From IMG/VR virus record IMGVR_UViG_3300031236_000988, positions 1 through 43,866 of that record: DNA of 43,866 bases; one strand, 5' to 3'. The notes under the pieces are model-generated. The model saw only the letters and a program-made list of their open reading frames with translations. It had not been told where the DNA came from and searched no databases. Made by a program: the position numbers and the translations under genes. Positions 2,634-42,330 of the stretch are shown here, piece by piece (the first letter of the stretch is position 1; the number at the start of each line of letters is the position of its first letter). The stretch comes from a virus.

Positions 2634-4076
2634 ATGTCTGATACATGCACAAACACGCTGGGCCGTTTCGAAGAGGAAAACTCTTCAGATCGGCCGACAG
2701 GTGCGCGCACGGATTCGACGAGGCAACAACTGCAGCTCCCATTCGCGATTTCGCAAATTGAGGTCGAGGACGATATTTCCGCCCGCGGATCGCGAGGGGA
2801 CAGACACGTCCCCGCACCAGCCAAAGAATTGCAATCCAAAGCGGTTACCGGTACCCTTCTCGACGCAACGGCGATAAGGCGGAGAGGACCATCTTTGTCC
2901 CGCCGAATCGGTCAGAAAGGCAGCGTGTTTCAACATTCACAGAAATGGGACCCTGCAGGAAAAACATACGGGCGCTTTTGGGTTGACGTGCCGGGCCGCA
3001 GACGCCAGCGCAGAACAATTGCGCTTGGAGTTTGCCGCACGCCTAGCATTGCCAAACAAAAGCTCCGTGACTACATCGAAACCACGGAGGTCAATAGCAA
3101 GCAGACCTTTACCTCAACCACAGCACCGGCGACAACATTTCGCGTTCAGGCGGAAAAGTGGATCGCCTCACTTTCCACGCGGCGCCGCAAGCCGGTCAAA
3201 CCCGCCACGATTTCGGGATGGCAACACTCATTGAATAAATGGGCTTTGCCGAATCTTGGCGACTTACTTCTCGCGGACGTGGGTAATGCCGCTCTAAAAG
3301 GGCTGATTGACAAGATGTCTTGCGCTGGGCTTTCCCCGCAAACCATCGTTACGCATTCGAAGGTTGTAAAGATGGTGGTGGCCAGTGCCGTCAACGCCGA
3401 GGGCGAAGAGGTTTACCCGCGCAAATGGAATCACAACTTCGTCGGTATGCCAATTGTGGATCCGACGAAGCAACATCGTCCGACTGTAACCCAAGCGAAG
3501 CTTCAGGAGATCCGTGCCGCCATCAATCCGCGGTACGCGGTCCTTGTGGATTTGCTCGCAGGCACAGGGCTTCGAATTGGAGAGGCCTTAGGCTTGAAGA
3601 CGGACGACTTGACCTCGGAGTGCAGGGTCCTCCATGTTCGGCGGAGCATTTGGCACGGCCGAGAGCAAAAACCGAAGACAGAGAATGCTATTCGCGTGAT
3701 CGACATCCCAGAACAACTCGCACAAATCCTACGCGAGTACGTCGCTGGGAAGAAGGGTTACTTGTTTTCCACGCGAAACGGCACTCCTCTGTCATCAAGA
3801 AATGTGCATCGGGCCTTACACGCCGCGGGTGCGACATGCGGATTCCATTCGTTCAGACGGTATAGGGCGGCAGTGCTGCGCAAAGCCCAGGTGCCTGAAG
3901 ATCTGATTGGATTATGGCTCGGGCACTCTCGAAGCCTTACGGACAGGTATGCCACACAGTTGAGAGAAGACGTTGCATTCCGATCCGAGTGGTGCGAGCG
4001 TGCAGGTTTGGGCTTTCATTTGGGCTACGTTGGGCTACAAAATGTTGTGTCGATTGATTCCGAGAAAGTAGCGTAA
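2634..4076 (+). CDS. Tyrosine recombinase/integrase of the left-flank element
   Basis: 480 residues with all catalytic landmarks of phage-type tyrosine recombinases: Arg314 in TGLRIGEAL, His405 and Arg408 in HSFRRYR, His431 in LGHS and Tyr439 in DRYA. Residues about 90-150 form an arm-binding-like region (RIGQKGSVF through a WDP..K.YGRFWV strand), and residues about 165-290 the SAM-like core-binding domain. The first 85 residues are poorly ordered and unusually long. The gene points at the tRNA-derived att copy and stops 25 bp before it, but lies outside the phage. It therefore probably belongs to another element sharing the tRNA-Arg site. Function is secure; ownership is inferred. Confidence 0.9.
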   Translation: MSDTCTNTLGRFEEENSSDRPTGARTDSTRQQLQLPFAISQIEVEDDISARGSRGDRHVPAPAKELQSKAVTGTLLDATAIRRRGPSLSRRIGQKGSVFQHSQKWDPAGKTYGRFWVDVPGRRRQRRTIALGVCRTPSIAKQKLRDYIETTEVNSKQTFTSTTAPATTFRVQAEKWIASLSTRRRKPVKPATISGWQHSLNKWALPNLGDLLLADVGNAALKGLIDKMSCAGLSPQTIVTHSKVVKMVVASAVNAEGEEVYPRKWNHNFVGMPIVDPTKQHRPTVTQAKLQEIRAAINPRYAVLVDLLAGTGLRIGEALGLKTDDLTSECRVLHVRRSIWHGREQKPKTENAIRVIDIPEQLAQILREYVAGKKGYLFSTRNGTPLSSRNVHRALHAAGATCGFHSFRRYRAAVLRKAQVPEDLIGLWLGHSRSLTDRYATQLREDVAFRSEWCERAGLGFHLGYVGLQNVVSIDSEKVA

Positions 4077-5861: not shown

Positions 5862-5937
5862 TGGCGACCCCGGTCGGACTTGAACCGACAACCATCAGCT
5901 TAGAAGGCTGGCGCTCTATCCGTTGAGCTACGGGGTC
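5862..5937 (-). tRNA. tRNA-Arg(TCT), phage-borne
   Basis: It folds as a full cloverleaf on the minus strand: acceptor GACCCCG with CGGGGTC, D-arm GCTC/GAGC, anticodon loop CTTCTAA (anticodon TCT, plus-strand 5902-5904), T-arm GTCGG/CCGAC and an encoded CCA (5862-5864). The outermost anticodon-stem pair is a C-A mismatch. It reads AGA/AGG codons. It is complete and lies inside the phage, separate from the attachment-site tRNA. Confidence 0.88.
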
Positions 5938-15889: not shown

Positions 15890-17503
15890 GTGGAAAAAGA
15901 CCCTCAGCAACACAGGAACCCAGTGACAAGCATCACCCCCCAGATGGCAGAACGTCTTGAGGTACGCAGGCGCTGCCGCACAGACCTCCAATTCCTTTCC
16001 GAGATGATGGGCTATGATTTCGTCCCCGAAGTCCACGACCTCTTGTGGGCGCAGTTCTTCAAACCCGATCCCTCGAAGCCTTGGGCGCAGCAAACCTACA
16101 TAGTCAAGCGTTTGATCCTCTGGGCACGCGGCCATTATAAGACCACCGCGATCATGGTTTTTATCGTCTGCCTAATTTTGAATTTCAGTGACATCAGAAT
16201 TTTAATAATGCAGGGTTCCGTCCCGACTACCAAGACGCTCCTGCACCAGATCAAGTGCCACTTCAACGGGGAGAACCCCAATTCCCGCATCCCCGAACTC
16301 TTCCCCGAATTTTGCGTCCTGAACAAGCGGCTGGGCACAGCCATGAACTTCACCGTGCCGTGCCGCGTCAACAAAGGTCTCGCGCAGGCGACCGTCACCG
16401 TCGCGTCTTCCAAGAGCATAAAAACCGGACAGCACTACGACATCGGATTTTTTGACGACCTCGTGAACGAGTCGAACTACAAGTCCGCCCCGCAGCTCGC
16501 CAAGGTCAAGACGGATTTCATGCTGTGCATGCCGCTTCTTGACAATCCCTACTTCGCCGTGGTCAGCGGCACCCGCTATGCCTTTGGGGACTTGTACGAG
16601 GAAATACAGCGCCACAACAAGGGCGAATGGCAGATTTCGATCACCGACTGCTGGAAGGACGGAGACCCCGAGAAGGGGCCGCGCTTCCCGCAGCAGCCTT
16701 CGCGCCTCGATCCGAACAGGCTCGTGGGATTCACCACGGACAGCCTTCTCAACATGCGGGATGCAGACCCCGAAATGTTTTGCTGCCAGATGCTCAATAG
16801 GCCCGCGCAGCGCGGCGGACAGAAGCTCACCAAGGCGTTGCTGGAGTCCGCGCTCATAAATCCCGAAGACGCACCACCGCTCTCGGCGGCGATATTTTTC
16901 ATCGACACGGCAAGCACCACGAACGAGTGGAGCAACGAGTCCGTGGTCATCGTCGGCAAGCACGACCAGATGATGACACAGTACGTTGTGGACTGCGCCG
17001 GGGGCAAGTGGGGAAGCCCCGAGCTTGCGCAGTCCATCATCGAGATGGCGCTGCGGCACAGACCGGAACGGATTTTCATCGAGAAGACGCCCACATCCGT
17101 GGTGTTCACGGAGTTCCTTAAGCTGATGTGCAAGTACCGGGGCATCTACCTCCCCATCGAGCTTCTGAAGCGCGACGGGCAGCTCGACGCGAAAGACATC
17201 CGCATCGCGTCCATCGAGCCGATGATCAAGATCAAGAAGCTCCGCATCTTCCGGGGCATCCGCCACTGGGACAAGATCGTGGAGGAGTGCGGCAGGTGGC
17301 CGGGCGGGAAGAACACGCTCGACGACTTCCCTGACACCATCGCGCTGATGGTCAAGACGCTCGGCGGCGAGACGCTGATGCAGACGATCACGAGAGCGCC
17401 GAGCAACACGATACTCGCGATAGCCGCGCAGGTGCAGGCGGAGGAAGACTCAATCGCGAAAGACCCGCTGCCTGACGACGGGATGGACGGGTTCTACTTC
17501 TAA
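15890..17503 (+). CDS. terL: Terminase large subunit
   Basis: 537 residues, GTG start. The ATPase half has a Walker A-like ARGHYKTT (about residues 79-86, lacking the classic GxxGxGK) and a Walker B FFDD (about 187-190). The nuclease half has Asp339 (FFIDTAST), Glu398 (FIEKT) and Asp478/Asp479/Asp482 (DDFPD), the RNaseH-like acidic set. It packages DNA into proheads at the portal. The length is normal for the family. A Gly-rich upstream segment with a small stem-loop supplies only a weak ribosome binding site. Strongly supported. Confidence 0.92.
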   Translation: MEKDPQQHRNPVTSITPQMAERLEVRRRCRTDLQFLSEMMGYDFVPEVHDLLWAQFFKPDPSKPWAQQTYIVKRLILWARGHYKTTAIMVFIVCLILNFSDIRILIMQGSVPTTKTLLHQIKCHFNGENPNSRIPELFPEFCVLNKRLGTAMNFTVPCRVNKGLAQATVTVASSKSIKTGQHYDIGFFDDLVNESNYKSAPQLAKVKTDFMLCMPLLDNPYFAVVSGTRYAFGDLYEEIQRHNKGEWQISITDCWKDGDPEKGPRFPQQPSRLDPNRLVGFTTDSLLNMRDADPEMFCCQMLNRPAQRGGQKLTKALLESALINPEDAPPLSAAIFFIDTASTTNEWSNESVVIVGKHDQMMTQYVVDCAGGKWGSPELAQSIIEMALRHRPERIFIEKTPTSVVFTEFLKLMCKYRGIYLPIELLKRDGQLDAKDIRIASIEPMIKIKKLRIFRGIRHWDKIVEECGRWPGGKNTLDDFPDTIALMVKTLGGETLMQTITRAPSNTILAIAAQVQAEEDSIAKDPLPDDGMDGFYF

Positions 17504-17529: not shown

Positions 17530-19566
17530 ATGGCAGACTCAAAGTACAACCCGGACAACGAATCCAGCGTGAGCAGCTTCCGCAGCCTGCCTCAGGCTAT
17601 TGATCCCTCGCTTGCCCAAGACCCCATCATCGCACCCGAAGACTTGGCCTTTTCGGAGGAAGAGTTCGACGACCAGACCGCGCTCGGCATCGTCCTCGCG
17701 GACGTGCAGACTACGGTGGCATACCTGCAATCCAAAGCTTTGATGCCCACAGGCATCGACCTCGCGGACGACCTCATTCGTGCATATACAAAACCCCGCA
17801 TCTGGCCCGACGGAAAGCCGAAGGCCAACCTGCCTATGCACGTCGTCTTGGAGGCAATCGAGAAAATCCTGCCCGTGCTTTACATGTCACTGTTCGGGTC
17901 AGGGCGCAAGGTTCCGTTCATCCTTGAGCCGCTCGGCAACACCACGCCGGAGGCCGCACGCGCCAAATCCGATGTCCTCTGGTGGGCGGTGAAGCAGGCG
18001 AACCTCAAGGAGGAGATGCGCCTCACGATGAAGACCTGCCTGTCCTACGGCTTCTGCGTCGGATGGAGCGGCTGGGAGTCCAAGGAAATCCGCAAGAAGG
18101 TTTACACGAACACGAACGGCAAGGTTACGGGCAAGTGGAAGGAAGTCCCGATGAACCTCCCCACGTATTCAAACATGCCGCTGAAGAACATCGGCTTCGA
18201 CTCCGCGTGCTACCAACAGAACGTTTATACCGGAGCAAAATTTGTTTTCAAGCAACTGATGATTGATGCGAACGACCTGCACGACATGCGTGCGGATACT
18301 GAGCACTACAAGAACATTCCCGACGACGACCAGCTTCGCGAGATACTTTCCCACAAGAACGAACCTACCGAAGATTCTCTCGCGGCAGACAAAAGAGCGA
18401 CTTGGCGCGAGTTCCAAGCCTCCATTGACGCGGACGCCACGAGCAAAGACCCGCTGATGCAGCCGCTTGAATATATCGAGTACCACTCGAACGACCACGT
18501 GTTCGGCGTGCTCCAGCGGAAGATCGTGATCAGGAACCAAGCGAACGAGAAACGGCACCTGCCTGCACGTAGTTGCGCGTTCATCGACATCCTCGGGAGC
18601 GCATGGGGTTTTGGTATAGCGCGTCTTTTGGCCGGGGAGCAGAGATTACAAGTCGGCGTCGCATGCAACTGGGTTGACTCTCTCGCCCTCGTCTTGAATC
18701 CCGTCTACCAACTTATGAAAGGTTTAGGACCCGGAACTCAAAATGTTCCAGTGTCGCCCGGCAAGGTCATCAACCTCAACGGAGAACTGAAGCCGCTGCT
18801 CACGCCGGACATTTCCATGCCCGCGATGGGTGCTATCGAGTCCTCTGAATCCCGCGCAGCGAAGAGAGTCGGCGCGAACGGCGGGGACATGATGCCCAAG
18901 CAGGCATTGCGCACCGGAGCCGGGGTGAACGCCTTGACAGGCGACGTGGTCCAGCGCCTCCAGTATTTCTTGGAAATATTTGTCAACAACATCTACATCC
19001 CCGTCCTTGAGGAGTTTCTGGAGGATTGCTTCGACCAGCTTCAGCCCGAGCAGATCAACCACATCCTCACCGAGGAGCAGGGGAAGGCTTGGGAAGGCGA
19101 CATCGCCGACGTTTACAACGCGCAGTGCTCGGTCGATGTCATCGCCGGGGCGAACCTCATGGCACGCCAAGCCGCCGCGCAGCTCCTGCCCATGATCCTC
19201 AGCACAATGTCCTCGTCCGCTGTGCAGGATGCGCTACAGGTCAAGGGCGACTACTTCGACTTCGAGGAAGTGTGCAAGGAAGCGTTGGACATATTCGGCT
19301 GGGACTTGGACACGCTGTTCCACAAGATGACCCCCGAAATGCTCCAGCGCATGAACCAAAAGAACCAAGCGATGTCCGCCGGAGTCGCTGCGGCGAACCT
19401 ACAGAATCAAAAACACGATAACAAACTTTCGGAGATAAACGAAAAAGGAACAGTTGAGGCGGGCGTTTCACTCGTAAAAACCGCCGTGAAAGGCAACGCG
19501 GACGCCGCTGGCGCGGAGTTGCAAAGCTTGGGTCAGGGAAGCGGTGAGGAAGAGGGAGGACAGTAA
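17530..19566 (+). CDS. Portal protein
   Basis: 678 residues directly after the terminase, in the size range of podoviral portals (P22-like). Recognisable features are a variable acidic start, a wing rich in beta strands (residues about 170-300), a conserved-looking LPARSCAFIDILGSAWGFGIARLLAGEQ stem region (about 340-366), long helices EIFVNNIYIPVLEEFLEDCF, and an Ala/Gln/Asn-rich helical barrel-like end (about 600-678). It forms the dodecameric ring for DNA entry and exit and binds TerL. The call rests mainly on position, length and architecture. It overlaps the next start by one base. Confidence 0.8.
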   Translation: MADSKYNPDNESSVSSFRSLPQAIDPSLAQDPIIAPEDLAFSEEEFDDQTALGIVLADVQTTVAYLQSKALMPTGIDLADDLIRAYTKPRIWPDGKPKANLPMHVVLEAIEKILPVLYMSLFGSGRKVPFILEPLGNTTPEAARAKSDVLWWAVKQANLKEEMRLTMKTCLSYGFCVGWSGWESKEIRKKVYTNTNGKVTGKWKEVPMNLPTYSNMPLKNIGFDSACYQQNVYTGAKFVFKQLMIDANDLHDMRADTEHYKNIPDDDQLREILSHKNEPTEDSLAADKRATWREFQASIDADATSKDPLMQPLEYIEYHSNDHVFGVLQRKIVIRNQANEKRHLPARSCAFIDILGSAWGFGIARLLAGEQRLQVGVACNWVDSLALVLNPVYQLMKGLGPGTQNVPVSPGKVINLNGELKPLLTPDISMPAMGAIESSESRAAKRVGANGGDMMPKQALRTGAGVNALTGDVVQRLQYFLEIFVNNIYIPVLEEFLEDCFDQLQPEQINHILTEEQGKAWEGDIADVYNAQCSVDVIAGANLMARQAAAQLLPMILSTMSSSAVQDALQVKGDYFDFEEVCKEALDIFGWDLDTLFHKMTPEMLQRMNQKNQAMSAGVAAANLQNQKHDNKLSEINEKGTVEAGVSLVKTAVKGNADAAGAELQSLGQGSGEEEGGQ

Positions 19567-19865
19567 TGCCTACGGAACTTGAACGTATTTCAGCAATCAG
19601 GATCGCGCTCGCCCCCATAGTGGGGACGCCGGGCTGGTTCTACGTGAAGAAGATCGCGGACAACGTCGTGGACGCAGCCAAGGATTCAATTCTTGACGCC
19701 GAGACGCCCGAAGAGCGCGAGGAACTTGCGCTGAAAGCGACCGCCCTCAAGAAGGGCTTCGCGGAACTTTTCAAGGGTATTGAGTCGCTCACGTCTTTCG
19801 AGGAACGCGAGGAAGACGACGATTGGTACGCAAACCTGAATTTTGAAGCTGAACAAGGAGAATAG
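19566..19865 (+). CDS. Small acidic phage head-module protein
   Basis: 99 residues beginning at the stop of the portal gene (TAATG), so coupled. Helical, with a strongly acidic end (FEEREEDDDWYANLNFEAEQGE). It precedes the probable scaffold and may be a portal or scaffold accessory protein. No known family recognised. Confidence 0.6.
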   Translation: MPTELERISAIRIALAPIVGTPGWFYVKKIADNVVDAAKDSILDAETPEEREELALKATALKKGFAELFKGIESLTSFEEREEDDDWYANLNFEAEQGE

Positions 19866-19866
19866 T

Positions 19867-20799
19867 ATGCCAGAGACAAAAGCATTCGATCCAGAGACCG
19901 CACCTCTTGAAGAACTCCGCGCTATGGCGCTGGCGGAATCCGAGAAGGCGGAAGTCGCCGAGCCAGAAGTCCGTCCCGCAGCCAAGGCCGAGGTTGTCAT
20001 CGCCGATGATCCAGACCACCTCGTGATCCCCACCGATGAGGCCGAGGAAGTAGCCGAGGAAGAGGAAGAGACTGAGTACATCGTCCGCCGCGAAATAGAC
20101 CTTGGCGACGGTTCCGGCGTGCAGGTATTTTCCGGCAAAGGCGCGACGCAGGCGGAAGCCTACGAGGCATACATCGACAAGATCAACGCGGCGCAGGCCA
20201 GCGCTACTCGCAAGATTCGCGAACTGAGCAAGCAGGTCAAGACCGAGAAGGTGCTGACCGACCAAGAGAAGGCTGACATTGAGTATGTCACTCGGCAGAG
20301 GTTCCAGAAGGAACCCGAGAAAGTCGTCGAGGAGCTTGTGATCCAGACTTTGAACAAAGCCGCTGCCGGAAAAGCGCGCAGCGACCAAGCGCAGACAGAT
20401 TTTGTTGCTACGCACCCCTTATTTGTAACCGATCCCAAGACGGGAAACGGCGACAAGATGCTGGCGGAGTTCGCAAGACTCTACCCTGATGCCACCGAGT
20501 TCACGGAAGCGGGATTGGAAAAGGCTTACCAAAGCCTGAGTTCCAGCGGATTGCTGGTTCTCAGGAGTGAGGAAGCGGACGCGGCCACGGAAGCGGAAGT
20601 CAAGGCAACTGAGCGTATTGCCCAGCCCAAGACGGAAGCTACGCAGCCACGAGTCAGCCGGAAGGCAAGCACGGTCTCCCCGAGGGGACGCCCTGCACCA
20701 GTCGTGAAAACGGAGCCTACGGAGGACGAGCTTTATGCCATGCCAATGGATAAGCTTCGCCGCCTCGCGATTGACGCCGACAACAAGGCGCAAGAGTAA
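19867..20799 (+). CDS. Probable scaffolding protein
   Basis: 310 residues from the ATG at 19867 (AAGGAG upstream); a start at 19843 would lie inside the previous gene. Highly charged, Glu/Ala/Lys-rich and helical, with a very acidic stretch (about residues 60-80), a long central helix (QASATRKIRELSKQVKTEKVL) and a Pro/Arg-rich end. Acidic, helical, low-complexity proteins directly before the major capsid gene are usually scaffolds that assemble the prohead and leave it. Inferred from position and composition. Confidence 0.65.
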   Translation: MPETKAFDPETAPLEELRAMALAESEKAEVAEPEVRPAAKAEVVIADDPDHLVIPTDEAEEVAEEEEETEYIVRREIDLGDGSGVQVFSGKGATQAEAYEAYIDKINAAQASATRKIRELSKQVKTEKVLTDQEKADIEYVTRQRFQKEPEKVVEELVIQTLNKAAAGKARSDQAQTDFVATHPLFVTDPKTGNGDKMLAEFARLYPDATEFTEAGLEKAYQSLSSSGLLVLRSEEADAATEAEVKATERIAQPKTEATQPRVSRKASTVSPRGRPAPVVKTEPTEDELYAMPMDKLRRLAIDADNKAQE

Positions 20800-20850
20800 G
20801 CCCGAAGCCCGCCGCACGGCAAAAGCCACCCGAACCTCAAGGATGAATTT

Positions 20851-21852
20851 ATGGCTTTGCCAACAGCAGCCTCAGTAGTCTCAAGCGGTCTCGCGGCCTA
20901 TCCGACGATTTTTTACGATAGGACCGCGCTCGACACCCTGTATCACAACTTGTTTTTCTATTCCAGCACCGACCTCAAGGTCATGCCCGATATGTCGGGC
21001 GTCGCCATGCAGCTCTTCGGCTACACCGCGATGGTTGCCAACACCGTCCCAGCGACGGAAGGCACACCCGGCGTGGGTCAGACCGTGACGCAAGTCCCGG
21101 CGGTTTTGAACCTCGCGAACTACGTCGATTACATCAGCTACTCCAACAAGGTGAAGCTCACAGCCATCAGCGACACGGTGGCCGAGGGTTCAGCTTTGCT
21201 CGCTTTTAGGGGCGCATACTCGGTTGACACCGTCATCCAGAACGCCTACATCGCGGCGGCCAATGCGACCCCGGCTGACTACATTAAGGTCGCAGACGGT
21301 TTTTATATGACCGCCTCGCTCTCACGCCAAGCGGTGTGGAAGCTCCGTGCCTTCGACGTGAAGCCCAAGGCCAACGGCCTATTTTTCGGGATCATCCACT
21401 CGCTCAACGCCTATGACCTTGTCAACGACGCTACGGCGGCTGGTTTCACCGACCTCCAGAAGTACACGGAGAGCCTCGCACCGGACAACCCGGCCCTCGC
21501 CGGAATCCGTGGCGCTCGTGTAGGTAACGTAGGCGGATGCGAATTTTTCGAGTCGAACGCCGTCACCGTGACGCCGGGCTACGCGGGATCGCCCCCGAAG
21601 AACGGCTACAACGTCTACGTGATCGGACATCAGGCGTCAATTTCGTCCAGCCTCGGCAAGACGAACCTGTCGCAGAAGAACTTCACAGTTGTGACGCGCA
21701 ACTTCCCAATCGGTTCTAACTCTCTGGACCCCGGCGGATTGATCGCTGCGGCTTCGATCTACAACTTCTTCTTCGGCTGCATCATCGCGCCGCAGACGGT
21801 CGTGGGCACGGACAAGTTCAGAATTATTCAAGTGGAGTCGTCCATAGGCTGA
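20851..21852 (+). CDS. Major capsid protein, N4-gp56 type
   Basis: 333 residues. The N-terminal half matches the pattern of the N4-gp56 capsid family (HK97 fold): a hydrophobic start, KVMPDMSGVAMQLFGYTAM, an ATEGTPGVGQTVTQVPAVLNL segment, NYVDYISYSNKVKLTAISDTV and a LLAFRGAYSVDTVIQ helix. It is the shell subunit, in the usual place behind a scaffold. AAGGATG precedes the ATG. N4-gp56 capsids occur mainly in podovirus-like phages, in agreement with the rest of the operon. Confidence 0.85.
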   Translation: MALPTAASVVSSGLAAYPTIFYDRTALDTLYHNLFFYSSTDLKVMPDMSGVAMQLFGYTAMVANTVPATEGTPGVGQTVTQVPAVLNLANYVDYISYSNKVKLTAISDTVAEGSALLAFRGAYSVDTVIQNAYIAAANATPADYIKVADGFYMTASLSRQAVWKLRAFDVKPKANGLFFGIIHSLNAYDLVNDATAAGFTDLQKYTESLAPDNPALAGIRGARVGNVGGCEFFESNAVTVTPGYAGSPPKNGYNVYVIGHQASISSSLGKTNLSQKNFTVVTRNFPIGSNSLDPGGLIAAASIYNFFFGCIIAPQTVVGTDKFRIIQVESSIG

Positions 21853-21861
21853 AAAAACAAC

Positions 21862-21903
21862 TTTTGTGACTTTCTCAGTATTAGACAGAGAGGTCACAAA
21901 ATG
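21862..21903 (+). promoter_or_regulatory. RNA hairpin over the homing-endonuclease ribosome binding site
   Basis: TTTTGTGAC (21862-21870) pairs perfectly with GTCACAAAA (21893-21901); the inner TTCTC/GAGAG can extend the stem. The 3' arm contains the end of the GAGAGG Shine-Dalgarno sequence and the A of the ATG at 21901. Read-through capsid transcripts would therefore hide the start codon. A comparable arrangement is known for I-TevI and other T4 homing endonucleases. Confidence 0.7.
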
Positions 21904-22692
21904 TTCATCTACAAAATCACGAATGCCGTCAATGGAAAGATTTACATCGGGCAGCACAAGGGCGACAGCTTGCAGAAGTACCTGTGGCAGAAGTTCAGTC
22001 ATGCTCGCAGTAAGAAATCTATGGGGTCGCATCTGTTCAACGCCATGCGGAAGTACCCCAAAGATGCTTGGAGCATAGAGGCTCTCGCCGAGGTTCACGG
22101 CGAGAAGGCAGTGCTTGACAGCCTTGAAACTTTTGTCATCACCGTCTTTGATTCCCGCAACCCCGAACGTGGTTACAACATCTGCCGGGGCGGCGAAGGA
22201 CGAACGGGACCACACACCGCCGAGACAATAAAGCTAATCGGCGAGAATTCAAAGAAGATGTGGACGAACCCCGAGACCGTGGAAAAGATGCGGGTGAGAA
22301 CAACCGCAACCGCAGATAGGCAACGGGGCGTCCCGAAGAGCGAAGAGCACATAGGCGCTATACGGGAAGCGATGCAAGACCCGAAGGTTCGGAAACATCA
22401 AAGCGAGGCAGCGAAACAACGCTTCGCCGAGGGCAGAGGCAACTTGCACGATGCGGAGACCGAAGCCAAGAGATTAGAGGCTTGCAGAACTCCAGAGTTT
22501 CGAGCCGCAGTGGCGGCACGGAGTAAAGGGAACTCGTGGAAGAGAGACTGGTTCGCGAAGCAGGAAAAGAAGCCAGCATCTCCAGTCCTACCGCACGTAA
22601 ACAAAGGTAGGAAGTTTTCTGATGAGCATCGCCGCAAATTGAGCGAAGCCCGAAAACGTGTAGTGGCACAAGGAGCAACAAACATTTTATGA
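21901..22692 (+). CDS. GIY-YIG homing endonuclease with NUMOD3-like motifs
   Basis: 263 residues. The GIY-YIG domain opens at residue 2: FIYKI (the GIY half), then IYIGQ (the YIG half), followed by the Arg/His-containing region and SLETFVITVFDSRNPERGYNICRGG. Downstream are NUMOD3-like DNA-binding repeats (GVPKSEEHIGAIREAM, GRKFSDEHRRKLSEARK), the usual tail of phage free-standing homing endonucleases. It cuts alleles lacking it and spreads by repair. It sits between the capsid and the next virion gene without interrupting either, and its stop overlaps the next ATG. A hairpin covers its ribosome binding site. Confidence 0.88.
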   Translation: MFIYKITNAVNGKIYIGQHKGDSLQKYLWQKFSHARSKKSMGSHLFNAMRKYPKDAWSIEALAEVHGEKAVLDSLETFVITVFDSRNPERGYNICRGGEGRTGPHTAETIKLIGENSKKMWTNPETVEKMRVRTTATADRQRGVPKSEEHIGAIREAMQDPKVRKHQSEAAKQRFAEGRGNLHDAETEAKRLEACRTPEFRAAVAARSKGNSWKRDWFAKQEKKPASPVLPHVNKGRKFSDEHRRKLSEARKRVVAQGATNIL

Positions 22693-23648
22693 GCAGCCCA
22701 ATCTTTATCTACTTTCTCGCCGACGGGGAAATCTGGGTTTCAAATGACATCCAGAAGTATCCGCCCGTCCCGCAGTATCCCGATGTCTCGCCCGGATTGC
22801 CCGGCACGATTGATGCCATCTTCAAGATCAGCGGCGAAGTAAAGTACCAGCAGCTCGGAACCATCGTCGGGCAAATCCTGATCTCCTTCAACGACGCTGT
22901 GGGCACGGAACTCGGCGCGGCTGCGCCGTACGGAATTTTGGCCGCCGCTGGAATCACGAACGCCTCGGCTGCCACCACCATCGTCCCGAATCCGCCCGTC
23001 GTGATAGGTTCTTTCCCAACGACTTCTATCACGGGGTTCAACCCGCCGCTCGCTACCATCGACAACACGGACGCTGCCGCAGCTCAGGCCGCTGCTCTTG
23101 TTGCCTACAACTACTATTCTTCACTGACATTCACTTCCCTTGGCGGATCAATCGACTTGAGCACGTCCAACGGAAGCGGTGGAAACGTCTACACGCCCGG
23201 AAATTACAGTTTCGGCGCTGCTTTGATGTCCACGGGTATCGTCCTCAACGGCGCAGGCACATACATTTTCAAGGGATCGTCCACGATCAACCTTGCGTCA
23301 GGACAGTCGATAATCCTGACGAACGGAGCCACGGCGTCGAACGTCGTCTGGCTGGTCGGTTCGTCACTCACAACGGTCGCTAACAGCAACTTTGTCGGCA
23401 CGATCCTTGCCAACACATCCATCACGCTCGGCGGCGGCACGCTCGTCGGTCGCGCTCTCGCAGGCGTCGTTACGAGTTCCGGCGCGGTCACAATCGCAGC
23501 CAGTACGGCGATCACTTTGCCAGAAGCCACCGGCGCTGCGAACGCAGTCGGGACTCTGCAAAACGTGGGCATCAACAACGCGGCAACCCTTGTCACCCGC
23601 TACGGACTAACGGGCGGCAACGGGCGCAACGGAATTGAAATAGTCTAA
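22689..23648 (+). CDS. Virion-region protein with a DUF3494 ice-binding-like domain
   Basis: 319 residues. Residues about 80-276 follow DUF3494 from end to end: YGILAAAGITN, the TSITGF turn, a TIDNTDAAAAQAAALVAYNYY alpha helix, VYTPGNYSF, an N-V-V-W-L-V-G strand, FVGTILANTSITLGGGT and GRALAGVVTSSGAVTIAASTAIT. DUF3494 is a discontinuous beta-solenoid with a long side helix; members include bacterial and fungal ice-binding proteins and adhesins. The first 70 residues are an unrelated domain, probably the capsid or tail anchor. No signal peptide is present, although secreted members normally have one. It is coupled to the preceding gene (ATGA) and transcribed with the capsid gene. Domain call firm; the role (head fibre, adhesin or ice contact) is open. 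Confidence 0.85.
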   Translation: MSSPIFIYFLADGEIWVSNDIQKYPPVPQYPDVSPGLPGTIDAIFKISGEVKYQQLGTIVGQILISFNDAVGTELGAAAPYGILAAAGITNASAATTIVPNPPVVIGSFPTTSITGFNPPLATIDNTDAAAAQAAALVAYNYYSSLTFTSLGGSIDLSTSNGSGGNVYTPGNYSFGAALMSTGIVLNGAGTYIFKGSSTINLASGQSIILTNGATASNVVWLVGSSLTTVANSNFVGTILANTSITLGGGTLVGRALAGVVTSSGAVTIAASTAITLPEATGAANAVGTLQNVGINNAATLVTRYGLTGGNGRNGIEIV

Positions 23649-23657
23649 GGAGACTCT

Positions 23658-23951
23658 ATGTCAATCGCAGCACCAGCAACATTCACGATCACAGGCGGAG
23701 CGACACTCACGATCAGCGTCACGTGGAGCGTCGCCCCGGTGACCTCAACGATGGTCATCAACGGGCACACGTATCCGCTCAACGCGGTGTTTGACAACCC
23801 GGCGAACGTCATCGCCGACATTGAAATCGCCGCGTCATGCTCGCCGTACTTCGCCGGAAAAGTTCTTCAGGCGTTGCAGACGGTCATCGGCGCATACGAC
23901 ATTCAGGCCAACCAAGCACAGGGCCTGCCGCTCAGTTTCGCAATCGCCTAA
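23658..23951 (+). CDS. Small beta-rich virion-region protein
   Basis: 97 residues, AAGGAG before the ATG. Beta-rich N-terminal half (FTITGGATLTISVTWSVAPVTSTMVINGH) followed by a helical half (ADIEIAASCSPYFAGKVLQALQTVI). It is in the same operon just behind the DUF3494 gene, so it could be its partner, a decoration protein or head cement. No known family recognised. Confidence 0.6.
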   Translation: MSIAAPATFTITGGATLTISVTWSVAPVTSTMVINGHTYPLNAVFDNPANVIADIEIAASCSPYFAGKVLQALQTVIGAYDIQANQAQGLPLSFAIA

Positions 23952-24011: not shown

Positions 24012-24320
24012 ATGGAATTTGTCACGCCGTCAGTCTACATTTTGTCCCGCCTCACAGCACCCGAAAGCACCAACGAAGTAATGCGTGCGCTCGGGATGAC
24101 GCCGCTCCACACGGTTTTCGTGCACGATCTTCTCGACCTTCCTCTGGCCTTGTGCTTCCTGCTGCCCCACGAGGTGCTGAAGACGCACAGCGAAAAAGAT
24201 TCGATCATATTAGCGCAGGAGATATTCCAAGAGACGGACATGCCGTGCCTTGTCATCGGCGATGCCGCGCTCTTGGACTGCCTGTACGTGGACGGGCGAA
24301 GGGAATCGGTGAACGTCTGA
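24012..24320 (+). CDS. Hypothetical phage protein
   Basis: 102 residues; AAGAGGGAA precedes the ATG. The chain alternates strand and helix (MTPLHTVFVHDLLDLPLALCFLLPHEVL), with a hydrophobic stretch that is probably core rather than membrane. The stop overlaps the next start (TGATG). It lies among head-completion candidates; function unknown. Confidence 0.55.
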   Translation: MEFVTPSVYILSRLTAPESTNEVMRALGMTPLHTVFVHDLLDLPLALCFLLPHEVLKTHSEKDSIILAQEIFQETDMPCLVIGDAALLDCLYVDGRRESVNV

Positions 24321-25374: not shown

Positions 25375-26403
25375 ATGCCTTTCACCAAGACGCTTCAGTC
25401 GGTCTCTAATTTCTGTTCAACGCACGCCGATCTGCTCCCCCTGAGTGGGATCGGCGGGTTCAGTAATGAACCGTTTTTGACAATCGTCAATCTGGCGTTG
25501 TCCGACCTCATCACCGAGGAGAACAACTGGAAAATCAACAGGGCCGAGATGCCCTTCTTCGTGACCTGCCCGCAGAAGCAAGACCAGCTTTTCGCTGGTG
25601 CTTGCGCCTTCAGCCTCGGCTCCACGGCGCAGGGCTGGGGGGTAGGACTCGCTTCCAATTCCGCTGTCACAGTAACAGGCGGAGTCGTGACAGTCACCTT
25701 TCTCGAAAACCACCGCTTCGCAGTCAACGATGTCATCTATCTGAACGGCCTCACGATGACCACGGGCGTCGCATCGTATTACAACTCTGTCTTCACCGAC
25801 ACAGGCAAGCTGTCCACTTGGTCGCAGGGCTACACGATCACCAGCGTCAGCTCAAACTCGGTGACCTTCGCGGCTGGGAATGGCCAGAACAACGGCGACG
25901 CCGGAGGTTCCCCCGGAATCTTCGATTACTTCGCCCTCTCGCAAGGAACCGTGACACAGACCGTGTCGCAGTCTTCGCCGCAGTACGGCTATGGCATCGA
26001 CACGTACCGCGAACTGCTGAAGAGTCCGCATGTACAGAATCCCCAACAGTTCGCTGTCCTGTTCGACTACCAAAACGGAATCCTGAAGATCAGGGCGTAC
26101 CCGTGCCCCGGCTCGACGACTTGGTCGGTCTATCTGGTCTACCAAAGGCAAGCGCCCACGAAGACATCCCTCGCCGACAACTGGTATCCGTTCCCCGACA
26201 ACTACAGCGAGGTCTACATCCAGTCGGTCATCTACAGGATGTACCGCTGGCTGAACTCGCCGCAGCAGCAGGTCGAGTATTTGAAGTTGCAGGACGCGAT
26301 AAAAAAGGCCCAAGGGGCCGACGACACCGAGGAAACCTCCGTGTCGCTGCAACCCGAAGAACCGCTGATGGGCTTGACCGGCGACAACTGGTTTGGGTGG
26401 TGA
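25375..26403 (+). CDS. Virion protein, possible head-tail adaptor
   Basis: 342 residues. N-terminal helices (FNEPFLTIVNLALSDLITEENNWKINR-type stretch, residues about 29-58), a beta-rich insert (residues about 85-190: VTVTGGVVTVTFLENHRFAVNDVIYLNG, an Ig-like or beta-sandwich pattern) and a C-terminal part with QNPQQFAVLFDYQNGILKIRAYPCPG. Position after head genes and before the large tail protein suggests an adaptor, tail-tube A-like or connector protein of a short-tailed virion. The 'ring plus beta insert' layout fits, but no diagnostic motif is present. Confidence 0.6.
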   Translation: MPFTKTLQSVSNFCSTHADLLPLSGIGGFSNEPFLTIVNLALSDLITEENNWKINRAEMPFFVTCPQKQDQLFAGACAFSLGSTAQGWGVGLASNSAVTVTGGVVTVTFLENHRFAVNDVIYLNGLTMTTGVASYYNSVFTDTGKLSTWSQGYTITSVSSNSVTFAAGNGQNNGDAGGSPGIFDYFALSQGTVTQTVSQSSPQYGYGIDTYRELLKSPHVQNPQQFAVLFDYQNGILKIRAYPCPGSTTWSVYLVYQRQAPTKTSLADNWYPFPDNYSEVYIQSVIYRMYRWLNSPQQQVEYLKLQDAIKKAQGADDTEETSVSLQPEEPLMGLTGDNWFGW

Positions 26404-26894: not shown

Positions 26895-29800
26895 GTGGCA
26901 ACACCAAAGACACCCGAACCGAAAATACTTTCGTTCTTCAGCAAGGGCCTCGTCACCAATCGCCAACCCCTGTTTTCCGCGTTAACAAACATCGGAATCC
27001 AAGTCGCGAAATTCGACGACGCCCTTATTGACGGCGTGAACATGGAGAGCACTGATAGGTACACAGTGCAGCGCCGCCCTGCGTTCACGAAGTATTGCTC
27101 GGAACCCTTGCAGTCCGGCGAAGTTCCCCTCGCGTTCTACTCGGTGAAAAATTTGCAAGGTGTCGTCAGCGTCATCCTCGACACCAACCTCGCTGTGTAC
27201 TGGCTGACTACAACGCCGCAGGGGACTCCGCCGACCTCCTATCACGTCATCCTGAACAAGTCCACATCGAACCAAGCTTTTTTACAAACAGTTGGGAACA
27301 TCACATATATCAGCGACGGTATGGATTTCGTGAAGTGGAACGGCACGACCATGGCTCCGTGGGGCATTGACGCGCCTCCCGTGGCTCCGCCCATCATCTC
27401 CTCCACACTCCGGTACCCCGGATCGTGGATAGCAAGTTTTCCGTATCTCGCGGGCACCACGATTCTGGACGTGAATGGCTCAATCGAATATTGCACCCAG
27501 CCCGGTTTGAGCGGAAAAACCTTTCCTGTCTGGAATACCACGGTAGGAGCATCGACTATTGATGGTCTCGCGACTTGGGAGAACGTAGGCAACGCCCAAT
27601 TGTATTGGATCGCGTCAAACCCTTACACGGTTCCCACCGTCATCACGGACACAAATTCCAATCTCCAGCTTGCGACCGCCGTGACATCGGGTGGAACGTC
27701 GGGCACTGGTGCTCCTGTTTGGAATGAGGTTCGCGGCGGCAGTACAACCGATTCTGGGATCACGTGGCTGAACATCGGCCCCGCGCTGGTCTGGGCTTAC
27801 GTCGGATGGTCCTACGTCTACGCCTACCGCTGTGTGTCCGGCAACTTGAGCACGTCGTCCCCCATCTCCGTGCAGACCGGCCCGATGATGTCATCGCAAA
27901 GCCTGTCACCCATCACCGTCACAGCTTACGTAATCGCGTCGAACGTCATCACCGTCACCGCCGTAAACAATTTCGAGGTAGGGCAGTCGGTCACATTCAA
28001 CGGCTTTCCTAATTCGACGTTCCTGAATGGTCAGACTGTCATCGTGGCTTCGCTGGTTGGAAGCCCCGGCGCGTACACGGGCTTCACTGCTGTTTTCGCG
28101 AATCCAAATGCCGCAGCCTCGGAAGTCGGGCAGGGATACCCTGTCATCCTGACCCTAACTGGAACTGGGAGCAGAGACCCTGAGTGCAACAGCGTCGCGA
28201 ACATCACAGGCGTGACCGTCCTGAACGACGTGGTCACGATAAATGCCATAAATAATTTCGTTCCGGGATTGAGCATCTATTTTTCCGGGTTGGTCAACGC
28301 GACCTTCCTGAACGGGCAGACGCTTTATGTCGCCAGCACGAACGCGATTGCTCCGGGGAGCGCTACGCAGTTCACCGTGAATTTGCAGCAGGCTAACTAC
28401 GACCTTGCGCCGGATACCGGCACGGGGACTTTTTGCGCGGTGGAGATTTATCGAATAGATGACGGCGGCGGCGTATATTACTTCGACAATGCCGTCGTGA
28501 ATCCTACCGGCCCTCCGCTTTCATCCTACGACTCGGGATCGCTGCTCGCTGGCTCCGGCGTTGACTCGGGCATGCCCGGTTCCCACGTGTGGGCTAATCC
28601 CAACAACGTCACGTCGCCGTCGAGCTACGCCACTGTCACGGTGCCGTCATCCGGCTCGGGCGGCGCGTTCAACATCGCCCAAAGCGCCACGGTGGGCGGC
28701 TGCTTCACCTACAATGGTGGTGGCTCGCCCACAGGCCCGGCTCCGTCGAGCGTCACGTTGCTGATGCCCAACGTTGTCGCGGGCGGAAACCAACTGCTGC
28801 TTTACGTGTTTTCGCGCACGCAGGAAGTGCTGACGGTCACCGACACGAACTCAAACGCGTGGACGCTCGTGGACACGTATACTTACACGTACACATACTA
28901 CCCATCTTACAGCGACACCTATACCGTCGCCTGCTACACCTGCCCGGCACCGGGTGCTACCGCCCTGAACATCACGATAGGTTTGACAGCGGACGTGGGG
29001 CCGAGCTACTCCGGCGAGACACAAGCTATTGCGATGGAAATGAACGGCCTGACGGCGTCACCAATCGACGTTTTCAACGCCGTCTGGGGGACCGGAACTT
29101 CCTTGAGCACCGGCACCGTGACCACGACTAACGCACCCGACGCAGTCATGTCCGTGGTTTGGACTCCGGCACTGAGTGCGGTGCAGCCGACAGGATACGC
29201 GCTGGTGGCTTCGGAGTACCTGAACAACGGGTCCTATGTTTCGCAGTTCTCCGCCGCCTACGAAAATCAGACGGCCACGGGGACTTTCACCCCGACATGG
29301 ACGGACAGTGCATCTGCCTTCTTCTACTTGGGCATGACGACGGCGTTGAAATCGAACTTGGTGACATATTCCGACGCACTGAAAGCCACGACTTTCCCCG
29401 AGAGCGTGCCTGCGGGTGTGACGGCTGTCGGAATAAAAGTAACCTTCGACGCTTTGTACACGGGCGCGGCGGGCATAGGCGCGCTATATGTCCAACTCCT
29501 GAAGAACGGCAATCCCTACGGGAGCATCAAGACAGTGACTCCGACTTTGTCGAACGTGAATTATACGCTTGGCGGGACGGGCGACCTCTGGGGAGCTATC
29601 TGGGTCACGGGAGATTTCCCTCCTTCGACATTGTGGGGTGTGCAGTTCACTGCTGGCATGACGAGCGGAGGCCCGTGGACATTTTCCGTCCGCGATGTCC
29701 GCGCGGAAATCTACGGCGAGTACGGCGTCACTACATGGACTTTCAACGATATCTTCCCGGACAGCCAGCTTGACAACGAGGAGGTGGCTCCGCTTGCGCA

Positions 29801-30941
29801 CGCGAACGACCCCCCTCCGGGTTCGCCCGGTTCCCTCGTGCCTATCGGCGGAACGATATCGGCTTTCTGGAGCGGACGCCTATGGCTCGCGGCTGGGAAC
29901 CAGCTCCTGTTTTCTGGGGGCGGCGACGTAATCAACGGTATCGGGAATGAGTGTTTTCCTCCCGGAAATTCGTGGACTTTCCCCGGCCCGATCACGGGAC
30001 TCATGCCTTCGGGAGGAGGACTCGTCGTCACGACTTCTTCGCAGTGGTGGGCAATTTTGGGCGGGCCTGAAACCACGACATTCTATCCCGAGAAAGTCTT
30101 CGACAATTTCGGATGCCTGAACCCGAACTGCTTGCGGATGGACATGGGCGTCATCTACGTCTACACGAGCCAGAAGCAAGTCTTCCAAGTGCAGGGCACC
30201 AACCAAAACGAGGTGAGTTTCTGGATCGCCCCGACTCTGAACGGGCAAGACACGCCGTCCGTGACGGCCAGTGCGTGGAACCCTGCTAACTCCTACCTCG
30301 CAGTTCACCGCGAAGGCGAGGACGCGGGCATGTTCCTTTCCAACGACATCGACTCCATGCTCCGCATGAGCCTGCGCTACGGAAATTGGTCAACGATCTA
30401 TCAGCCGAATCTCGGCACGGCGGCGGGATCTCCGCCCTCAAGCACGCCGCGATGCGGAGCCATTCAAAGCGTCGAGACGCAGCCCGGACAATTCACATTA
30501 CTCGTGGGCGACACGCAGCCGGGCGGGTTCATCTACCAGCGCAACCTCGACGCCTTCGAGGACGACGGCGGAGCCTATCCCGCCAACGCCATCATCGGGA
30601 ACATAGTCTGCGCCGAGATGGGCGAGCCGATGGTGCCGCTGCACTTCTTCAGCGGATATTTCATGAACGTGGGCAACGTCCCGGCGGTCAGTTTTCTGCC
30701 TAACGAGATTTTCACGACAGACACGAGGAAGTTCACGCCGCTCCCCGTCGTCCAGAACGAGCCTGTGTTCCTGATCCCATCGCAATCACTGATGGCGAAG
30801 CGTTGGCCGGTGCTGATGAACCAGAACGCGACGCCGCTGATGGTGAAGCACGTGCAGATCAACGTGGACTTCGGTAGCGACACCGCGAAGAACGAACTGC
30901 TGATCGCAGCCCTTAGATTCAGTCACGAGCAGATGACATAA
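26895..30941 (+). CDS. Large tail protein (stabilisation/tail-tube B-like)
   Basis: 1348 residues, GTG start with AAGGA upstream. N-terminal residues about 1-60 (FFSKGLVTNRQPL..., DGVNMESTDRYTVQRRPAF) and C-terminal residues about 985-1130 (FWSGRLWLAAGNQLLFSG, GLVVTTSSQWWAILGG, FGCLNPNCLRMD, VYTSQKQVFQVQG) look like the beta-propeller body of short-tail stabilisation proteins. The long middle consists of beta-sandwich inserts: two units ending in PVW...TW.N.G (about residues 215-225 and 275-300) and two 'NNF..G.S..F.G..N.TFLNGQT' units (about residues 355-490). It probably forms the distal tail tube or nozzle. Exact homology not certain. Confidence 0.7.
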   Translation: MATPKTPEPKILSFFSKGLVTNRQPLFSALTNIGIQVAKFDDALIDGVNMESTDRYTVQRRPAFTKYCSEPLQSGEVPLAFYSVKNLQGVVSVILDTNLAVYWLTTTPQGTPPTSYHVILNKSTSNQAFLQTVGNITYISDGMDFVKWNGTTMAPWGIDAPPVAPPIISSTLRYPGSWIASFPYLAGTTILDVNGSIEYCTQPGLSGKTFPVWNTTVGASTIDGLATWENVGNAQLYWIASNPYTVPTVITDTNSNLQLATAVTSGGTSGTGAPVWNEVRGGSTTDSGITWLNIGPALVWAYVGWSYVYAYRCVSGNLSTSSPISVQTGPMMSSQSLSPITVTAYVIASNVITVTAVNNFEVGQSVTFNGFPNSTFLNGQTVIVASLVGSPGAYTGFTAVFANPNAAASEVGQGYPVILTLTGTGSRDPECNSVANITGVTVLNDVVTINAINNFVPGLSIYFSGLVNATFLNGQTLYVASTNAIAPGSATQFTVNLQQANYDLAPDTGTGTFCAVEIYRIDDGGGVYYFDNAVVNPTGPPLSSYDSGSLLAGSGVDSGMPGSHVWANPNNVTSPSSYATVTVPSSGSGGAFNIAQSATVGGCFTYNGGGSPTGPAPSSVTLLMPNVVAGGNQLLLYVFSRTQEVLTVTDTNSNAWTLVDTYTYTYTYYPSYSDTYTVACYTCPAPGATALNITIGLTADVGPSYSGETQAIAMEMNGLTASPIDVFNAVWGTGTSLSTGTVTTTNAPDAVMSVVWTPALSAVQPTGYALVASEYLNNGSYVSQFSAAYENQTATGTFTPTWTDSASAFFYLGMTTALKSNLVTYSDALKATTFPESVPAGVTAVGIKVTFDALYTGAAGIGALYVQLLKNGNPYGSIKTVTPTLSNVNYTLGGTGDLWGAIWVTGDFPPSTLWGVQFTAGMTSGGPWTFSVRDVRAEIYGEYGVTTWTFNDIFPDSQLDNEEVAPLAHANDPPPGSPGSLVPIGGTISAFWSGRLWLAAGNQLLFSGGGDVINGIGNECFPPGNSWTFPGPITGLMPSGGGLVVTTSSQWWAILGGPETTTFYPEKVFDNFGCLNPNCLRMDMGVIYVYTSQKQVFQVQGTNQNEVSFWIAPTLNGQDTPSVTASAWNPANSYLAVHREGEDAGMFLSNDIDSMLRMSLRYGNWSTIYQPNLGTAAGSPPSSTPRCGAIQSVETQPGQFTLLVGDTQPGGFIYQRNLDAFEDDGGAYPANAIIGNIVCAEMGEPMVPLHFFSGYFMNVGNVPAVSFLPNEIFTTDTRKFTPLPVVQNEPVFLIPSQSLMAKRWPVLMNQNATPLMVKHVQINVDFGSDTAKNELLIAALRFSHEQMT

Positions 30942-36260: not shown

Positions 36261-39200
36261 ATGGCGACTCAGACACCGCAAATTACGTTGACGGGCACAT
36301 TGCTCGACTCGGGAAACAACCCCGTGCAGGGCAAAGTTGAGCTGACGCTCGCGAACATCGGCTCCAGCATCCCGCGCATCACGGGGACAGGTATCATCGC
36401 GCCGCTAACCTACGTGGCGCTTTGCAACTCCTCCGGCGTTTGGACTTTGGTTTTCTGGGGCAATTTCCAAATTACGCCTCCGGGCACATTTTACGCGCTT
36501 GGGATTTTCAAGAACCAAAGCGCGACCGCGCCTGACTCAATCTCGAATTACGCATTCAACACAGCGGGGACATTCGACTTTTCGGAAATCAACCCGCTAT
36601 CGGAGCCGCCTGTGCCATTCACATACTTAGACGCCGTCATCACCGACCCTACCGGCGTCCAGACCATCGCGTTCTACCCGCTCAACGCGGCTGGCGGATT
36701 TCTCGCCAACAACCTGAACCCGACCGTGGGGCACGTGCTGCGCTCCAACGGCACGGCTTTCGTCGATGCCCAGCTACAGTTCTCGGACATTGGAGGAGTC
36801 GCGGTGGCAGGTCAAGTGCCCCCTCTTCAGAGTCTCAACGGGGCGGTCACGCCGACGCAGGTTCCGCCGCTTCAGAACTTGCTCGGGGCGGTCACAGCGG
36901 GGCAGGAGCCTTCGACCACAGTCAACGCGGTCACGAACGACACAAACATCACCGGAAGCATCTACGCACAAAACTTGACTCTCGGCTGGGCCGGAACCCT
37001 CGTGGCGGGACGTTTGAACTCCAATGTCGTCCAGTCTGTCACGAACGACACGAACGTGACGGGGAGCATATCCGGGCAAAACCTCACCCTCGGATGGACA
37101 GGAGTTCTTTCCGTCGCACGCGGCGGCTCGGGCACCGGGTCGGCTCCCGTCATCGTGGGCGGGCAGAACATAGCGATCACCGGAGCGTTTCCCAGCCAGA
37201 CGATCTCATTCAGCGGCATCCTGCCCATCGCCAACGGCGGAAACGGGAGCGCGACGCCGGGCATCCAGCAGGGAACCGGCACGACCGTAACGGGAACGTG
37301 GCCGAACCAGACGATCACTGCCACGTCGTTCACGGCAGTCGGATCGCTGACCGCCGTCCAGAACTTGGACGTTTCGACTTTTGCCGGGGCTGACCTCGGG
37401 GCAAAAATCAACTCCGCCATCGCGTCGGCTCCCGCCGCTGGCTGCGTTTTGGATTTGCGCAACTTCGCCTCGCCGCAGACCCTTTCGACGGCTGTCAACT
37501 TGAACGGGCCGTACAAGCTCTTGGCAGCGGGCATGGTCGTCAACCAAAGCGCCGCGATCACGCTGTCCGGCAACAATTCAGGCATCGTCGGTGTCCAAGG
37601 ACGTGCGTTTCAACTCGTCAAGGCCGCGTCGCTCGCGGAACAGGTCGTCATTTCCGGCAACGACTGCGTCCTCGACAACATCGTTTTGAATGGCGAGATA
37701 TCCCTCTCCTACACCGGCAGCGGTGTCGTGATTTCGAGCGGGGCGGCACGCACGATCATCTCTAACTCAAGCATCAACAGCCAGACTTCCTACGGCATCC
37801 AGAACCAAGGCTCGACTGACGCGCTCGTCAGCGGATGCTACTTCAACGCCAACGGCGTCCACGCCTACTACGAAAGCGCCGTCGCCGCGCGCACGCGCTT
37901 CCAGTCCTGCGAATTTGTTGACGCTTCCACAAGCACCGGCGCGACGATATACCCGTACACCGGCTCGACCTACATGGACGATGTCAGCGTGATCTCGTCG
38001 AGCGCGAACATCGCCTTCGACGCCAGCGCGGGCGCTACCGTCAGCATGGTCAACTGCGTCCTCTCGCAAAGCGGAGGCTACAGCGCCTACAAGCACGGTG
38101 CCAACTCTTTCATCACGCAGTGCCAGATTTCCGGCGGCGGAACCTCGGGTGCCGTCGTGCAGGCTTCGGGCGGAAACTTCCAGCTTGTCTCCTCCACGGT
38201 GACGGGCACGGGCGTCTCGGACGGACTCCTGCTCACCAACCCCGACACGGGGCACATCGTTCGCGGAAACTACATCGTGCAGAATTTCACGTCCAGCGGC
38301 AAGGCCGCGATCCACGTGAACGGGGAAATCCTCGGCGTCATCGTAGAGGGCAACTCGATCCTGATGGGCAGCGTGACGGCCACCAACTACGGAATCTGGT
38401 GCCAATATTCCGGCTCGGATCATTTCTCGGGGATGCACATTTCGGGGAACAGCATCAACGCGCAGAACGGCACGAACGCCGTCGGCATTTACTGGGACAA
38501 CACGAACGGCTCGACGAACTCCGTCGGAAACCTCATGGACGGGAACTTCGGCATCGACATCGAGAACGGGATTTTCATCCAAGTGTACGACGCGTTCGGG
38601 TATCTCGAAGGAATCATACAGGACAACAAATCCTACGGCGGCGCGCTCGTCACGAACGGAAACCCCGATGGCATCATCTGGAACCAGCCCGAGGACGATT
38701 TCACGCTCGCCACCGCGCCCATCGCGGCGTCGTACACGATTTTGAATCTGGAAGAAGTGACGCCGACGAATCCCGTGCGTTCCGCGACGAGCGGCACCGG
38801 CGGTCCGGCGGTGCTTCTCTCAGGAAGCTACCGCTCGCTCGTCAACCCCACGGTCGCTCAATACAACAACACAAACGTGACGGGGTTCATCTCGTACGAG
38901 TACATCTACACCACGCAAGCGGCGGGTCAATACCTGCTCAACTGGAACGCCACGCTCTGGGCTGCGGGCGCGTCTTCCTCGATGGGTCCGCTTTACATCA
39001 GCTACGTCGATCAGCAGACGAACACCACGCGCAGCATCCAGTACTGCCCGGCGTACCTTCTACCGGCGTCGGGGACGGTCACCACTCCGGTGTTCGCAAC
39101 CAGCAGCAACGCCAACGCCGTGGGCACCGGCCTGCTCGGAATCCCACTGTTCCTCAACTGCGCGGCGGGTGAGCCAATCGGAATCGAATTCTTCATGTCG

Positions 39201-39272
39201 GGCACCGTGGAGCCGGGGTCACCGCCCGTGACACCCGCATGTAGCCTGAACATCGTCGTGGAGATCAGGTAA
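36261..39272 (+). CDS. Tailspike with right-handed beta-helix
   Basis: 1003 residues; AGAGGAAT precedes the ATG. N-terminal virion-binding part (residues 1-160) with a phage-typical ITLTGTLLDSGNNPVQGKVE opening, a repeat-rich neck (about 195-340: two 'AVTNDTN(I/V)TGSI..QNLTLGW' units), then a parallel beta-helix (about 380-800: VVISSGAARTIISNSSI, ALVSGCYFNANGVH, TVSMVNCVLSQSGG, FITQCQISGGG) and a C-terminal trimer/receptor domain. It should bind and probably cleave a surface polysaccharide; catalytic acids cannot be placed by eye. Well-supported fold; substrate unknown. Confidence 0.8.
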   Translation: MATQTPQITLTGTLLDSGNNPVQGKVELTLANIGSSIPRITGTGIIAPLTYVALCNSSGVWTLVFWGNFQITPPGTFYALGIFKNQSATAPDSISNYAFNTAGTFDFSEINPLSEPPVPFTYLDAVITDPTGVQTIAFYPLNAAGGFLANNLNPTVGHVLRSNGTAFVDAQLQFSDIGGVAVAGQVPPLQSLNGAVTPTQVPPLQNLLGAVTAGQEPSTTVNAVTNDTNITGSIYAQNLTLGWAGTLVAGRLNSNVVQSVTNDTNVTGSISGQNLTLGWTGVLSVARGGSGTGSAPVIVGGQNIAITGAFPSQTISFSGILPIANGGNGSATPGIQQGTGTTVTGTWPNQTITATSFTAVGSLTAVQNLDVSTFAGADLGAKINSAIASAPAAGCVLDLRNFASPQTLSTAVNLNGPYKLLAAGMVVNQSAAITLSGNNSGIVGVQGRAFQLVKAASLAEQVVISGNDCVLDNIVLNGEISLSYTGSGVVISSGAARTIISNSSINSQTSYGIQNQGSTDALVSGCYFNANGVHAYYESAVAARTRFQSCEFVDASTSTGATIYPYTGSTYMDDVSVISSSANIAFDASAGATVSMVNCVLSQSGGYSAYKHGANSFITQCQISGGGTSGAVVQASGGNFQLVSSTVTGTGVSDGLLLTNPDTGHIVRGNYIVQNFTSSGKAAIHVNGEILGVIVEGNSILMGSVTATNYGIWCQYSGSDHFSGMHISGNSINAQNGTNAVGIYWDNTNGSTNSVGNLMDGNFGIDIENGIFIQVYDAFGYLEGIIQDNKSYGGALVTNGNPDGIIWNQPEDDFTLATAPIAASYTILNLEEVTPTNPVRSATSGTGGPAVLLSGSYRSLVNPTVAQYNNTNVTGFISYEYIYTTQAAGQYLLNWNATLWAAGASSSMGPLYISYVDQQTNTTRSIQYCPAYLLPASGTVTTPVFATSSNANAVGTGLLGIPLFLNCAAGEPIGIEFFMSGTVEPGSPPVTPACSLNIVVEIR

Positions 39273-42285: not shown

Positions 42286-42330
42286 TGGTGCGCCCGGAGA
42301 GATTCGAACTCCCGACCTAATGCTTCGAAG
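42286..42330 (-). repeat. attR, within the intact tRNA-Arg(TCG)
   Basis: The 3' half of the tRNA, 45 bp, matching 4102-4146 at 41 positions. It is the right boundary of the phage; exact crossover lies in the shared 28-base block (42290-42317) or in the 10-base block at 42321-42330. Confidence 0.85.

Follow-up and report, generated by a model that had tools for sequence, protein, structure and literature searches.

Ice-binding proteins of the DUF3494 family (PF11999), such as AnpIBP (7bwx), FfIBP (4nu2), and SfIBP (6bg8), are the closest described relatives of the protein analyzed here, and the hallmark of the classical secreted microbial members is export by a signal peptide. Viral occurrences have been described as well. 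Arctic sea-surface vOTUs likewise contain PF11999, and three marine viral contigs with PF11999 were published as carrying auxiliary metabolic or cryoprotection genes (PMC11515562). The same work linked viral ice-binding homologs to Synechococcus phage S-SKS1, although the whole record of this phage (HQ633071) gave no PF11999 match. One antifreeze gene is mentioned in Southern Ocean viruses (PMC8407431), and DUF3494 proteins are present in BFVD for Hyperionvirus, which is a giant eukaryotic virus rather than a tailed phage. The first-pass annotation had known of no described phage example. This holds for named phages, in which tblastn with three queries found no DUF3494, and for BFVD phage proteins, with none at E <0.001, but not for viruses at large, given the marine contigs and Hyperionvirus. 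In the open-licence literature exclusive of preprints, no paper was found that treats DUF3494 and phage together or describes the domain as a module of phage structural proteins.

Ig-like accessory domains on phage virion proteins are exchangeable, patchily distributed, and fused to or inserted in capsid-associated, tail, and sheath proteins. The phage DUF3494 domains described below resemble them as a putative surface module that is exchangeable and patchy, while they adopt a β-solenoid rather than an Ig fold and are expected to bind a different ligand. Among named phages, Tunturi_3, which infects the acidobacterium Tunturiibacter, has the most similar capsid protein (25.5% identity); it has no PF11999 match. 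Its gp7 (PP885686) occupies the same post-capsid slot as the gene analyzed here.

The window, a stretch of 43,866 nucleotides comprising the IMG/VR virus record IMGVR_UViG_3300031236_000988, carries a DUF3494 fusion gene at 22689-23648 (+ strand), a single open frame that translates to 319 aa. In a Pfam profile search, PF11999 Ice_binding covers residues 83-271 (22935-23501, +) with profile positions 1-204 of 208, an E-value of 9e-23, and a score of 81.5 bits against a curated cut-off of 28.7, in agreement with the complete domain first proposed at about residues 80-276. By phmmer, the protein matches 25 PDB sequences (best E 3.6e-16), nearly all of which bear ice-binding or antifreeze protein names. 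The domain is preceded by a phage-specific N-terminal domain (residues 1-72; 22689-22904, +) and followed by a C-terminal tail (residues 278-319; 23520-23648, +) that is modeled with low confidence and has no relatives among the fetched loci. No signal-peptide-like N-terminus is seen on inspection of the protein, as had been noted before, and the export hallmark of the secreted family members is thereby missing. Window positions 18138-23757 (5,620 bp) recur with 100% identity in another IMG/VR contig (3300036928_000018), including an identical copy of the gene; therefore, the fusion is not a chimera of a single assembly. A chance or low-complexity match is ruled out by the PF11999 score, the PDB matches, and the predicted fold.

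The genomic setting is that of a head module. On the + strand lie the genes for the terminase large subunit (15890-17503; PHROG 38, E 5.6e-42), an SU10-type portal protein (17530-19566; PF23899, E 4.5e-12), a probable scaffold (19843-20799), the major capsid protein (20851-21852; PHROG 1357, E 6e-18; relatives in L004-L012), and a GIY-YIG homing endonuclease (21901-22692; PHROG 314, E 2e-28). The scaffold is named only for its position between the portal and capsid genes; it has no family match, but L179 encodes a homolog at the corresponding position. The DUF3494 gene starts within the stop of the endonuclease frame (ATGA overlap), so both the coupling to a homing endonuclease behind the capsid gene and the placement in the head/late operon stand as originally described. 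Downstream on the same strand are a 97-aa orphan (23658-23951; no family matches, and none of the fetched loci has a relative), a 102-aa conserved late gene (24012-24320) that forms the right-hand border of a variable post-capsid slot, an SU10-type adaptor protein (25375-26403; PF24175, E 2.5e-8), and a 1348-aa probable tail protein (26895-30941). The location in the head module, adjoining the capsid gene, is the one expected of a decoration or head-fiber protein. Elsewhere in the window, a 1003-aa protein with a right-handed β-helix region (36261-39272; PF13229) is a probable tail spike. An integrase (2634-4076) and two tRNA-Arg genes (5862-5937 and 42286-42362) indicate that the phage is probably temperate.

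Relatives whose capsid proteins are 64-71% identical differ in what lies from the capsid gene to the next conserved gene. L006-L008 have an empty slot, L010-L012 hold three other small genes there, and no GIY-YIG homing endonuclease frame lies directly behind the capsid gene in L004-L012. In L004, L005, and L179, the slot is occupied by a stand-alone gene of 68-76 aa that is homologous to the window N-terminal domain (36% identity to the L004 protein in the alignment; phmmer E 1.9e-5), and no PF11999 match occurs anywhere in these three contigs, the only other ones in which two scans found the N-terminal domain. The L004 protein ends in GTELT*, where the DUF3494 part of the window protein begins (GTELGAAA). 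The ~70-residue N-terminal part is foreign to DUF3494, as first suspected, and most simply a phage protein already present in this slot gained DUF3494 at its C-terminus. A search for homology between the N-terminal domain and a known decoration protein gave no PHROG match, and Foldseek returned no significant PDB fold match (best E 1.9). The fold matches include five Major Tropism Determinant entries, at non-significant E-values of 1.9-5.7. No sequence similarity is seen between this domain and Tunturi_3 gp7.

An alignment scan of IMG/VR for DUF3494 gave 169 matching stretches, the best 80 of which were kept as 79 loci. Among these, the closest viral domains (L101, L102, and L105) are 69-74% identical to that of the window, compared to 44% for the best domain among 80 bacterial loci. 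In a tree of 168 domains, built by a quick search without bootstrap, 46 viral domains including that of the window form one virus-only clade (SH-aLRT 99, branch 0.48). About four changes are required to account for all viral domains in this tree, so some of them stand apart from the clade. Recent acquisition from a bacterium is unsupported for the window domain, which nests in the virus-only clade and has a GC content of 0.59, similar to that of its neighboring genes. A crude hydropathy rule assigns signal-peptide-like starts to 2 of 72 viral DUF3494 proteins and to 55 of the 92 bacterial ones.

The viral domains reside in a variety of proteins. A tail sheath protein in L175 (3829-6645) encloses DUF3494 (PHROG 279, E 9.8e-35; PF11999, E 3.1e-38), with one complete and one partial domain mid-protein; it lies outside the 46-member clade. 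DUF3494 occurs together with DUF2793 in a tail-fiber-type protein of L157, within homologs of the 1348-aa window protein in L117, L128, L129, and L176, and within homologs of Tunturi_3 gp13 in L114 and L118. In L122, L126, and L130, it is located behind the capsid gene. The L126 protein minus its DUF3494 domain matches Tunturi_3 gp7 end to end (E 2.6e-42, with 42% identity over 330 aa). A comparison of 24 gp7-type loci found the domain inserted only in L122 and L126 (seen again as L186). DUF3494 is thus present in unrelated structural proteins, absent from their close homologs, and inserted at points that vary between host proteins. For most DUF3494-bearing viral proteins, DUF3494 is the only family matched, and a structural role can therefore not be assigned to all of them. 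Judged from sequence comparison, DUF3494 is a recurrent, exchangeable module of phage structural proteins, which is broader than the single late-operon case initially put forward.

Several features of these loci deserve separate mention. One 223-kb phage contig (L104, L107, and L119) has six PF11999 domains. In L102 and L106 (~13-20 kb), a look at the sequence places the DUF3494 genes beside a glycosyltransferase- and sugar-nucleotide-like cluster; glycosylated virions are possible in these phages. Of 61 loci, 6 have a homing endonuclease gene within 400 bp of a DUF3494 frame, where 1.2 would be expected; such genes near DUF3494 genes include those of the window (21901-22692), L104 (11968-12732), L128, L134, L157, L174, and L176, and that of L104 sits between two DUF3494 genes. 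A homing endonuclease could act as carrier of the domain, but the enrichment may instead reflect a general preference for late genes.

The predicted fold places the window protein squarely within the family. In the AlphaFold2 model, the core of residues ~70-280 has pLDDT values mostly >90, with poor confidence outside it, and forms a discontinuous triangular β-solenoid with a long helix (129-144) along one face. It superimposes on AnpIBP 7bwx with a Z of 28.9 and an rmsd of 1.7 Å over 192 residues at 36% identity, and Z ranges from 25.7 to 28.9 across 7bwx, 4nu2, and 6bg8; the structure prediction proposed at the outset has thus come out in favor of the domain. The window protein shares with these ice-binding proteins the full domain, the fold, the B-face pattern, and the S153/T156 positions. 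In contrast to them, it has no signal peptide, is fused to a phage late protein, and belongs to a separate virus-only clade, and its ice binding is putative.

The face that binds ice in AnpIBP was mapped onto the window protein by alignment and strand alternation rather than from coordinates. Mutation of S153 and T156 in AnpIBP cuts activity to 17% (PMC7277481), and the equivalent residues are retained in 45 of the 46 viral clade members. The window B-face reads, row by row, T112 S113 T115, A87 G88 T90 A92, G265 A266 T268 A270, T243 S244 T246 G248, S225 S226 T228 V230, S198 T199 N201 A203, and A177 A178 M180 T182, and includes a ladder of five threonines (115, 90, 268, 246, and 228). On this mapping, none of its 27 outward positions is charged, while 86% of the B-face outward residues across the viral clade are A/G/S/T and 2.6% are charged. 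The outward positions of the clade are more conserved on the B-face than on the C-face (mean entropy 0.60 vs 1.10, p 5e-4), and the bacterial contrast is weaker (0.90 vs 1.26, p 0.05). A mixed Ser/Ala/Gly/Thr column 2 is reported for proteins from frozen sediment, rock, and subsurface, as opposed to the all-Ala polar marine type (PMC12337378); the mixed column 2 seen here resembles the former. The Thr ladder is also retained in 92 bacterial sequences, including taxa not tied to ice, and its retention is therefore no proof of an ice ligand. The B-face pattern fits a working surface-binding face and does not by itself name the ligand.

The reading that best accounts for these features, and that we hold to be likely with some room for doubt, is that the gene encodes a phage late protein, very probably of the virion, in which a small anchor displays a DUF3494 module that binds a flat, ordered surface. 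The phage-specific N-terminal domain would serve as the anchor, probably attached to the head or neck, and carry the β-solenoid at its C-terminus. The module would face outward, with its Thr/Ser/Ala-rich B-face in contact with the ligand, and would be dispensable and traded among many phage structural proteins in the manner of Ig-like domains. Sequence context strongly suggests display on virions, a possibility that the first-pass annotation had raised and that is plausible on these data. Ice is the leading candidate for the ligand, at somewhat less than an even chance; its binding would retain the particles at the boundary between ice and water, where microbes are concentrated, or reduce the damage done by freezing and thawing.

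A less probable but serious contender is that the displayed domain is a general adhesion module for polysaccharide, the host envelope or another cell surface, or mineral rather than ice. Soil actinobacteria, acidobacteria, and other groups without a link to ice commonly encode the family, the domain occurs in tail-fiber-type proteins and adjoins the glycosyltransferase-like genes seen in L102 and L106, and PF20597, an adhesive sister family, also matches one member. However, the listed homologs of known structure carry descriptions as ice-binding or antifreeze proteins, and the window B-face is uncharged with its ice-contact positions retained. It is improbable that the solenoid acts only as a passive spacer or decoration, stabilizing the particle and having no external ligand. 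β-Helical folds are common in phage fibers, and variable insertion points between scaffolds would suit such a role, but the exposed B-face is conserved above the exposed C-face, and the patchy presence in otherwise equivalent proteins suggests that the domain is not needed for assembly. Least probable of all is an auxiliary gene product released by the infected or lysogenic cell as a cryoprotectant for the host, a reading published for viral PF11999 genes (PMC11515562) and compatible with lysogenic expression given the integrase, since 70 of 72 viral proteins have no signal peptide, the gene sits in a late structural operon, and related domains are inserted within sheath, tail, and post-capsid proteins.

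The displayed-module reading also sets the phage domains apart from the Arctic vOTUs, which were read as host cryoprotection, while the phage domains here are parts of structural proteins. A bolder version, which we regard as tentative, is that tailed phages own an ice-binding clade, present in multiple copies on heads, tails, and sheaths, by which their virions actively attach to ice and so remain where ice meets water. Provided that virions carry the domain, binding to ice, or adhesion by way of this face, would belong to phages as well as to cells, and the PF11999 genes of viral metagenomes may have been misread as host cryoprotection. This offers a testable hypothesis for virion persistence and host finding in freezing habitats, for which phage pairs with and without the DUF3494 module form a natural comparison set. 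Should virions bind ice, this would represent environmental targeting of a form not described for phages.
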